Below are positions 9,057-27,147 of a stretch of DNA of 57,339 nucleotides, one piece after another. The stretch spans positions 1-57,339 of the forward strand of contig JAENYG010000022.1 in assembly GCA_016841875.1 (NCBI GenBank). Reading direction: 5' to 3'. The notes beneath the pieces are model-generated. The model was given only the letters and a program-made list of their open reading frames with translations, had not been told where the DNA came from and did no database searches. How positions within the stretch are numbered: position 1 is the first letter of the stretch; the number at the start of each line of letters is the position of its first letter. Source of the DNA: Syntrophomonas sp. (lineage in GTDB: Bacteria; Bacillota; Syntrophomonadia; Syntrophomonadales; Syntrophomonadaceae). Position numbers and translations under genes: made by a program.

Positions 9057-9830
9057 TTAATCCCCCTGTTCTCTATTAGACTCACTATCCATAAAATCCA
9101 CTAATTCATGTACCAATATATGTTTCTCTTTATCCATAGTAGCAATATGCCCTGAATTAGGCAAGGTTACCCTTCTGACCCGGCTGTTGAGCAGGTGCCT
9201 TTGTATATATTCAACACTTCCGCTCCTGACTGCCCGATCCTGTAAAGACTGCACCAGCATCGAAGGCAGCCTGAGCTCATCCAGCTCTTTTATAATGGTG
9301 TTCCTGAGTTGGGTAAGGCTGGTGTATGCTTTGACCGGATAACAATTGTAATCAAATCTTCCCTGCTGGGCCAGGTTATACTCTTTGCGAGCTCCCTTGG
9401 TGAAGTATGGCACAACACAATGCATAACTGGAGCTGCTGCCGATAGGATACGGTACTGGGTAAAGACCGGGGCATTGATTGCTACCACCCCCTTTAATCC
9501 CTGCAGGTGAATACCGGCATGCAGGGAGAGCAGTCCTCCCATCGACAGGCCGGCTATAAAAACGTGCCGGTATTGGTTCAGCAGTCTTTCGCCTTCATTC
9601 TGTACCGCTTCATACCAGTCATGCCAGGTAGTAGTATTCAAATCGGCCGGATGGGTGCCATGGCCGGGCAGGAGTATGCCGCTTATCGTACAGCCATTTA
9701 TATCGTGCAGCAGTTTTGCTGTGGGCAAAAGTTCTGACGGTGAAGCAGTAAAACCATGTAGAAAAAGCAGGGCCTTATCGGTTTCCCCTTCCAGATAAAA
9801 TGGATCCGCTTTAGGATTACAATTCTTCAC
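9057..9830 (-). CDS. Alpha/beta-hydrolase carboxylesterase (Est30/YvaK-like)
   Basis: A 257-residue alpha/beta hydrolase. The nucleophile is Ser96 in GLSMGG, the oxyanion-hole segment is LFLHGFTAS, the acid is the Asp in LQDRAV and the base is the His in NSGHIATMD. Length and motif positions match the thermostable Bacillus carboxylesterase Est30, whose gene sits between secG and rnr, as here. It cleaves short to medium acyl esters; the physiological substrate is unknown. The start is GTG at 9830 with AAGGGA upstream. Confidence 0.85.
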   Translation of the reverse strand: MKNCNPKADPFYLEGETDKALLFLHGFTASPSELLPTAKLLHDINGCTISGILLPGHGTHPADLNTTTWHDWYEAVQNEGERLLNQYRHVFIAGLSMGGLLSLHAGIHLQGLKGVVAINAPVFTQYRILSAAAPVMHCVVPYFTKGARKEYNLAQQGRFDYNCYPVKAYTSLTQLRNTIIKELDELRLPSMLVQSLQDRAVRSGSVEYIQRHLLNSRVRRVTLPNSGHIATMDKEKHILVHELVDFMDSESNREQGD

Positions 9831-9882
9831 TATCTAATCCCTTCCTGGCATTTATTCAACTGCAAAAACCCTAAAGATGACT

Positions 9883-10091
9883 TTTTGAATGCATAAATAT
9901 TCAGGAGGCATTGGCGAAGCATGGCAGAAACACCCCGCGAAGACTCATAGCAAATGGGGTTGAGTCCCACGGATGGGACGAGAAGGCAGTTGAACACGGA
10001 TGTGAATCTGCCCGGTACCCCATTTACTTTGAGGCAAGCAGTTGGTGTTTCCCATGCGGAGACTGACGACGGCATATTTTTGCATTCAAAA
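9883..10091. ncRNA. Candidate structured RNA or foldable element, multibranched
   Basis: The gap of about 390 bases between the esterase and hppA holds a nested fold. P1 pairs 9883-9900 with 10074-10091 (17 of 18 bases). P2 pairs GCATGG (9919-9924) with CCATGC (10052-10057) and AAACACC (9928-9934) with GGTGTTT (10044-10050). P3 pairs AAATGGGGT (9952-9960) with ACCCCATTT (10017-10025). Inside P3 are two hairpins: GTCCCA-CGGA-TGGGAC (9964-9979) and GGCAG...CTGCC (9985-10012) with an inner CAC-GGAT-GTG. GACTCA (9942-9947) can instead pair with TGAGTC (9961-9966), an alternative fold. I recognise no riboswitch or known RNA class. It may be a non-coding RNA, an omega-RNA/HEARO-like relic or a folded miniature element. 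Strand is undecided. Confidence 0.5.
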
Positions 10092-10142
10092 TCACGAACA
10101 TTACTTTTGCAGATCAATATTATTATTATTAAAATTATATAC

Positions 10143-10173
10143 AAAAAAGCAGGTAGATTTACTACCTGCTTTT
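10143..10173 (-). terminator. Rho-independent terminator of hppA
   Basis: On the minus strand GCAGGTAG, a five-base loop and CTACCTGC form an 8-bp core (11 bp with flanking A-T pairs) followed by a run of six T. It is 50 bases past the hppA stop. The A-rich other flank means it could also act on the plus strand. Confidence 0.85.
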
Positions 10174-10224: not shown

Positions 10225-12210
10225 TTACAGCAGTGGAGCGATGAAAACCAATGAGACTATGGCCATAAGTTTAAGCAGAATATTCAGTGAAGGCCCGGCA
10301 GTATCTTTACAGGGATCACCCACCGTATCGCCAACTACTCCTGCTGCATGAGCTTCACTGCCTTTTCCACCGTAATTTCCAGATTCAATATATTTTTTGG
10401 CATTGTCCCAGGCTCCTCCGGCATTGGCCAGCATTATCGCCAGACATACTCCAGAAGCAATGGAACCGGCCAGCATCCCGGCCAGGGCTTCACCTTTCAG
10501 GAACAACCCTACCAGTACCGGTGCTATAATAGCCAACAGGCCTGGCACTACCATCTCCTTAATGGCAGATCTGGTGCTGATGTCTACGCAGCGGGCATAA
10601 TCAGCTTTGGCGGTTCCTTCCATCAGCCCGGTGATTTCCCGGAACTGTCTTCTAACTTCTTCCACCATTTCAGCAGCTGCTCTTCCTACCGCTCCCATGG
10701 TCAGAGCACAGAAGAAGAAGGGCAGCATAGCACCTATCAGAACACCTACCATAACCATGGGGTTCAGCAGGTTAACGGATTCGATTCCGGCTACCTGAGA
10801 AAAAGCGCTCAACAGGGCCAGGGCGGTTAAGGCAGCAGAACCTATGGCAAAGCCTTTACCTATAGCAGCGGTAGTGTTTCCTACCGAGTCCAATCTGTCA
10901 GTGGTTTCCCTTACCTCGTGGGGTAGTTGAGCCATTTCGGCAATACCACCCGCATTATCAGCTATGGGACCATAAGCGTCAACTGCCACCACCATTCCGG
11001 TAGTGGCCAGCATTCCTACAGCTGCCAGGGCGATACCATAAATGCCACCGGTCAGATATGCTATTACAATCGCAGCACAGATAATCAGGACGGGAATAAG
11101 GGTAGAAAACATACCTACTCCCAATCCAGATATGATAACCGTAGCAGGTCCGGTTAGAGCGGATTTAGCTATGCCCTTAACCGGTTTATACTCATCCGAA
11201 GTATAGTATTCGGTGACCAGACCGATGATAGTTCCAGCTGCTAATCCGGCTACCAGGGACCAGAATACTCCGAAGTATGCTTCCGGCAGTAAATACTTGA
11301 CAGCGAAATAAGCCATCACTATTAGAATCGCGGCTGAGCTGAAGGTACCAGCATTTAATGCTTTAAGGGGATTGGTCTTTTCGTCGGTTCTTACAAAAAA
11401 GGTACCAATTATGGAAGCAAATACTCCCCCGGCAGCGATAACTACAGGAAGGAATATTCCTCCTGGACCGTACAAGGCTAAGCCAACTGCACCCAGAGTC
11501 ATAGCGGCGATAATAGATCCAACATATGATTCAAACAGGTCTGCTCCCATTCCGGCCACGTCACCTACATTGTCTCCTACGTTGTCAGCAATGGTAGCCG
11601 GGTTCCTGGGGTCGTCTTCGGGAATCCCTGCTTCCACTTTACCTACCAGGTCGGCTCCAACATCGGCAGCTTTAGTATATATTCCTCCGCCTACGCGGCC
11701 AAACAGGGCTATAGAACTGCCCCCCAGAGCAAAGCCATTAACTATCGATGGTTCTCCAAAAATTATGTACAGTATTCCCAGTCCCAACAGGCCTAATCCG
11801 GAAACTGCCATCCCCATGACTGCCCCGCCGGAAAAAGCTATTCCCAGAGCAGCATTCTGTGAGGTCCGAGCAGCGTTGGCGGTTCTGACATTAGCCTTGG
11901 TAGCTACGCTCATACCAATAAAACCAGCCGTAGCAGAACACACCGCACCTACTAGAAAACAGATGGCTGTCTGCCAGCTGTTGTTGGGCAGGGCTAAACC
12001 GAGTACCAGGAAAATAAAAACCACAAAAGCTGCCAGAGCCGTATATTGTCTTCTTAAAAAGGCCATGGCCCCTTCATGAATATGTCCCGCTATTTCAATC
12101 ATTCTTTCATTGCCAGGGTCTGCTTTGTTTACTCTTCCGGCCAAATAAACCGCAAAAAGAAGAGCAACTGCTCCTGCTGTAGGAGCATAAATCGTCAGGT
12201 TTTCTAACAC
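10225..12210 (-). CDS. hppA: K+-dependent membrane-bound ion-translocating pyrophosphatase
   Basis: A 661-residue integral membrane pyrophosphatase with about 16 helices. The catalytic segments are intact: [11 protein letters not shown] at 183-193 and [19 protein letters not shown] at 209-227. At the motif that separates subfamilies the sequence reads [10 protein letters not shown] (444-453), with Ala448 and Gly451, the signature of K+-dependent enzymes; K+-independent ones have Lys and Thr there. It hydrolyses pyrophosphate and pumps H+ or Na+; which ion cannot be decided. The start is GTG 12210 with GGAGGA nine bases upstream. It follows secG and the glycolytic genes and ends in a clear terminator. 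Confidence 0.95.
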
Positions 12211-27066: not shown

Positions 27067-27147
27067 TTGATTCCACTGCAAAAAGTAATATGCGTAGAAT
27101 ATTTATGTATTCAAAAAGTTTATTTAGTATTTTTGCAATGGAATCAA
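27067..27147. repeat. 81-nt inverted repeat with 18-bp arms
   Basis: Arms 27067-27084 and 27130-27147 pair in 17 of 18 positions (TTGATTCCA..TGCAAAAA) around a 45-base loop. The loop contains a second short hairpin, GAATA..TATTC. It lies just after the isomerase stop. On the minus strand the loop reads TTTTTGAATACATAAATATT, almost the same as the outer stem of the candidate RNA at 9883. Confidence 0.6.

Follow-up and report, generated by a model that had tools for sequence, protein, structure and literature searches.

The window, as we call the whole stretch of 57,339 nt analyzed here, contains hppA (10225–12210) and an alpha/beta-hydrolase-like esterase gene (9057–9830), both on the minus strand; the gene names come from the sequence and from an earlier note on this DNA. 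The spacer between the two genes was said in that note to have an unusually strong fold, and this was borne out. The predicted folding energy of 9883–10091 is −76.6 kcal/mol on the plus strand (shuffled sequences: −55.2, sd 4.1; z −5.27) and −81.7 kcal/mol on the minus strand (z −7.38); on neither strand did any shuffle reach the native folding energy. The inverted repeats named there were found as well: one of 18 nt, 9883–9900/10074–10091, with a 94% match, and one of 17 nt, 9944–9960/10017–10033. The features of this region that are needed first are as follows.

9883–9900, plus strand: 5′ arm of the inner helix P1, pairs with 10074–10091
10074–10091, plus strand: 3′ arm of the inner helix P1, partner of 9883–9900
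10145–10173, minus strand: intrinsic terminator of hppA, located outside the element described below, on its hppA side

Since hppA has a terminator of its own and both neighbours are on the minus strand, the folded stretch belongs to neither gene. A search of the window against Rfam gave no match at the gathering threshold; the loci of 14 other copies of the element gave one tRNA and nothing else at this threshold. Weak matches to L20 leader, MicC and sagA (E 0.1–4.5) fell on the hppA terminator and on the AT-rich spacer; we considered them chance matches.

A dispersed miniature element

The repeat common to all copies compared runs from ~9851 to ~10115, so that the 18-bp helix is internal to it. 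The earlier note had thought of a miniature element with 18-bp ends; the element is there, with its true ends ~30 bp further out. The following features belong to it.

9851–10115, plus strand: whole element copy, oriented as the GGA-loop RNA; repeated in its own genome, with an empty site in the sister genome G002
9851–9868, plus strand: left terminal inverted repeat TTTATTCAACTGCAAAAA; family form TTGATTCCACTGCAAAAA, 2 mismatches
10104–10115, minus strand: right terminal inverted repeat, decayed, CTTTTGCAG-ATC; family form TTTTTGCAGTGGAATC, TGGA lost
27069–27145, no strand assigned: second copy of the family, internally deleted, ends only, 77 bp; exact 6-bp duplication AACCTT on both sides

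We identified the feature in the window as one member of a family of miniature inverted-repeat elements (MITEs) that is dispersed in the Syntrophomonas lineage. Every MITE feature that could be tested was found, save an autonomous partner. The terminal inverted repeats expected of a MITE are present: the family ends are GATTCCACTGCAAAAA/TTTTTGCAGTGGAATC, and the full repeat reads TTGATTCCACTGCAAAAA ... TTTTTGCAGTGGAATCAA. Among 84 complete copies bounded by these repeats, 48 have an exact 6-bp target duplication and 10 an exact 7-bp one, against 0.78 and 0.01 expected when the flanks of different copies are re-paired. In the window copy (9851–10115) the right end is decayed, and so is the target duplication, which is not readable. 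Lengths of complete copies cluster at 270–271 and ~317 bp; shortened forms, down to 44 bp, retain target duplications. In Syntrophomonas wolfei ssp. methylbutyratica near-identical copies have exact 6-bp duplications that differ from one another. In the sister genome G002 the hppA and esterase flanks (94% and 91% identical) are joined directly, i.e. the site is empty.

Copies adjoin unrelated genes in both orientations, and none of 79 copies lies inside a long reading frame. With respect to co-directional neighbours there was no orientation bias (34 copies sense, 29 antisense, p 0.61). An autonomous transposon sharing these ends was sought in the genus and in the collected loci (in G071, among the matches listed), and no transposase-bearing pair of ends 0.7–3.5 kb apart was found; the end pairs found had spacings of 44–450 bp only, apart from one in L141. 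The latter spans an ordinary pyrD-like gene and was rejected as a chance pair.

In a congener (G001) we saw a subfamily with altered ends, GAGACCACTG...CAGTGGTCTC, represented by L102; it is flanked by an 8-bp repeat, GGAATGTC, rather than the usual 6 bp.

The RNA core and its relation to TwoAYGGAY RNA

The inner part of the element is conserved as a multibranched structure; a covariance model of it (R1) was built from 14 diverse copies.

9910–10065, plus strand: conserved RNA core; 164.3 bits with R1
9964–9979, plus strand: hairpin 1, GUCCC-ACGGAU-GGGAC, with tandem G.A flanks at 9962–9963/9980–9981
9994–10003, plus strand: tip of hairpin 2, AC-ACGGAU-GU, from the sequence and the alignment of copies

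R1 finds 13 copies of the core in the genome of the window and copies in 34 of 63 genomes of the order; several MAGs of Syntrophomonadaceae are among the carriers, as is S. wolfei ssp. methylbutyratica. One relative's genome has at least 47 copies; the 245 ends present there suggest ~100 elements. A genome-wide gapped pattern also matched in unrelated genomes (Dyella, Nitrosomonas and others); those searched with R1 gave no match and were set aside as chance.

In an alignment of 46 distinct sequences, which was fitted to R1 so that its covariation numbers are inflated, 94% of the cells are paired, 35 of the 39 core pairs have changes on both sides, cells with changes on both sides number 361 (90 when shuffled), and the covariation score is 0.578 (0.165 when shuffled, 0.06–0.08 with slid partners). 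An unfitted alignment (A8) already has compensated changes in 21 of the 39 pairs. The earlier note had suggested a structured RNA, to be judged by covariation among homologues, and covariation among non-coding homologues is what we saw. Among paired cells G-U is more frequent than A-C (46 versus 25, p 0.017); this excess and the tandem G.A beside hairpin 1 favour the plus strand as the RNA. Selection on base pairing maintains the core, which is best read as a plus-strand RNA.

Although the median identity is 52%, 45 of 48 copies have apical loops of the form A(N)GGA(N) (ANGGAN or AGGAN) on both hairpins. The hairpin stems turn over (CCCC/GGGG, GCGAC/GUCGC, GCGGC/GCCGC, GAAAC/GUUUC); outside the loops, conserved unpaired segments include GCGAAG and CAAGC. 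Two details singled out in the earlier note are not shared across the family. The GCGAAGC mini-hairpin is present at 9914–9920 but is no family feature, as most copies read GCGGAGC; the GACTCA/TGAGTC pairing proposed as a switch is present (9942–9947/9961–9966) but is not conserved, diverged copies having, for example, GCCGAAT, GGTGAAA or GGCGCCG in the place of GACTCA.

Longer copies (L003 at 1590–1650, L004, L006, L008 at 1400–1500, and L010) carry extra modules of ~50–110 nt beside hairpin 1; these modules (CCCGGGCACAACTGATGTTCGGTTAT...; CTCCGGGTACTACTGATGTTCCCGTTGG...) have motifs in common and may be nested insertions.

The Rfam search that the earlier note had advised, empty at the gathering threshold, gave one sensible match below it: TwoAYGGAY RNA (RF01731), a candidate RNA described by Weinberg et al. 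2010 (PMC2864571). The model aligns with this copy over its full length at 28.8 bits; the threshold, 43 bits, is reached by no copy in the same genome, and we therefore speak of a divergent TwoAYGGAY-like RNA and not of a formal member of RF01731. As in TwoAYGGAY, two hairpins with AYGGAY loops (here both ACGGAU) stand within one long closing helix; the differences are in helix sequences and lineage. A locus of a relative (L061 of G007) shares the left terminal repeat of this family and, at 54.5 bits with RF01731, is above the cut-off. Reciprocally, R1 matches 20 of 24 RF01731-type loci of other families and also the TwoAYGGAY loci L062–L066, none of them used in building R1. Tandem G.A has been reported for TwoAYGGAY (PMC4333381) and is present in this core too. 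Because of the L061 score, the reciprocal matches and the tandem G.A, we take the relation as homology rather than chance: the core is a divergent relative of TwoAYGGAY. The statement in the earlier note that no known RNA matches, made there of riboswitches only, is not upheld, given this sub-threshold but reciprocally supported relation. That note had a real object in hand and guessed two of its natures, structured RNA and miniature element; it missed the family.

TwoAYGGAY copies elsewhere in the phylum

Of 299 genomes sampled across the phylum, 29 have RF01731 matches above the threshold, mostly in multiple copies. Copies from twelve genomes are dispersed repeats as well, with other ends. 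In G178 and G312 the elements have ends CAGACTGTAGACAA..., and most copies adjoin a hairpin resembling an intrinsic terminator, which occurs again on the opposite side; the similarity of the two flanks scores up to 22 (mean 6.4 and maximum 14 for cross-pairs), with two copies scoring no better than the cross-pair mean. The G300 copies sit inside repeats of the CACGGGGACGGTTCT type. The differing ends in different genomes indicate that one RNA core travels on several unrelated mobile repeats.

The enclosing repeats in G300 (L290, L291 and L292), CACGGGGACGGTTCT...TGACTCA, are REP/RAYT-like in appearance. In G048 (C15:4754–5200) two TwoAYGGAY copies, L062 and L074, lie ~130 bp apart in direct orientation inside a longer direct repeat.

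In the literature examined TwoAYGGAY is published as a candidate RNA and not as a mobile repeat; we found there no description of a mobile, multi-vehicle TwoAYGGAY and nothing relevant on a CsrA-linked MITE or on Syntrophomonas MITEs. The mobile, multi-vehicle nature of this RNA thus appears to be unreported. Since its description in 2010 TwoAYGGAY has remained an orphan candidate; the finding of its relatives as MITEs, and of the same core between unrelated ends, changes the kind of object it is and offers hundreds of natural variants to test.

Possible roles of the core

The copy in the window is, in our view, that of a non-autonomous DNA transposon (MITE) with a conserved multibranched RNA related to TwoAYGGAY as cargo; we give this a probability of about 0.85, which covers the mobile element and the TwoAYGGAY relation, not the CsrA step discussed next. 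Such an element would be moved in trans by a cut-and-paste transposase recognizing GATTCCACTGCAAAAA. No promoter for the GGA-loop RNA was seen above chance, and transcription would come from outside, by readthrough.

TwoAYGGAY was proposed to bind CsrA from matches to the loop motif, paired hairpins with such A(N)GGA(N) loops being the known CsrA/RsmE site (PMC4333381). Paired GGA-loop hairpins, a feature of CsrA-sequestering sRNAs, are present here, and csrA is present in the same genome. Across the phylum csrA was found in 34 of 35 TwoAYGGAY genomes versus 179 of 264 others (p 9e-5), and by genus in 27 of 28 (p 0.001); it loses significance when only the order is considered, and there are element-rich genomes with no csrA match, such as G022 (99% complete), which has 19 copies. 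Group II introns, another mobile RNA used as control, also track csrA (OR 2.9, p 7e-5; OR 16 for TwoAYGGAY), so that the phylum-wide association partly reflects genome type; inside intron-bearing genomes the TwoAYGGAY excess has p 0.13. With these numbers and the loop motif in mind, binding of the two GGA loops, once transcribed, as a pair by a CsrA-type dimer is a tentative hypothesis, more doubtful than the mobile element itself. The copies would then serve as CsrA-binding sites or as a sponge. In the window the GGA-loop RNA would run opposite to hppA and the esterase gene alike; with no orientation bias among copies, no cis-regulatory role is visible.

One could speculate further, with still less assurance, that a CsrA-binding module is cargo of several unrelated mini-transposon families of Firmicutes, that TwoAYGGAY is a name for this module, and that tens of dispersed mobile sites per genome titrate or rewire CsrA. 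If the loops do bind CsrA, mobile elements of Gram-positive bacteria would be disseminating sites for a global regulator, in a group for which we know of no established CsrA-sequestering RNA.

The MITE cargo could also be a trans-acting RNA whose protein partner is not CsrA, or else a ribozyme or a processing signal. Such a role would suit the conserved unpaired stretches and the hosts that lack csrA; we still think it somewhat unlikely, as the loops on paired hairpins are those of the CsrA/RsmE site and point to no other partner. Less probable again is that the folded core is needed for transposition, either as DNA hairpins or as an RNA recruiting or regulating the transposase, its GGA loops being read by a transposition factor. 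The balanced orientations, the lack of a promoter above chance and the conservation of the core in csrA-less genomes would all agree with this. However, elements with unrelated ends and different manners of insertion contain this core (GATTCCACTGCAAAAA ends with duplications of 6 bp, CAGACTGTAGACAA ends next to terminator hairpins in duplicate, and further kinds), the pairing constraint is skewed to one strand, and copies reduced to their ends (44–151 bp) keep target duplications, which makes the core dispensable unless they were shortened after insertion.

That the core acts in cis on the esterase gene (or on hppA), as a riboswitch or other regulatory RNA, is very improbable: the element lies only 20 bp from the esterase start, but the constrained strand is antisense to both genes, the sister genome does without the element, and copies stand beside unrelated genes in either orientation. 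Equally improbable is a relic of an IS200/IS605 element, of an IscB/TnpB omega-RNA or of HEARO, an idea of the earlier note that has a foldable repeat in its favour and nothing more. Against it stand genuine terminal inverted repeats, an Rfam search in which none of these RNAs matched even at E ≤ 10, and target duplications of 6 bp, which IS200/IS605 elements are not known to make.

The preferred reading, a MITE with an RNA cargo, has partial counterparts among known systems. CsrA-sequestering sRNAs of the CsrB/RsmY type likewise have several hairpins with GGA in the loop; those, however, are sRNA genes of Gammaproteobacteria with their own promoters, whereas here we have dispersed transposon copies with no visible promoter and putative binding. 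Bacterial MITEs resemble our family in terminal inverted repeats, target duplications, absence of a gene, many copies and deletion derivatives; they differ from it in that the family has a conserved RNA core, found also between unrelated ends in other lineages. Some IS1182-type elements duplicate palindromic targets. The relatives in G178, G312 and others whose core stands between duplicated terminator hairpins may resemble them; the likeness would concern these relatives and not the family in the window. The terminator-duplicating TwoAYGGAY elements that we observed are L280–L287 in G178 and L296–L299 in G312.
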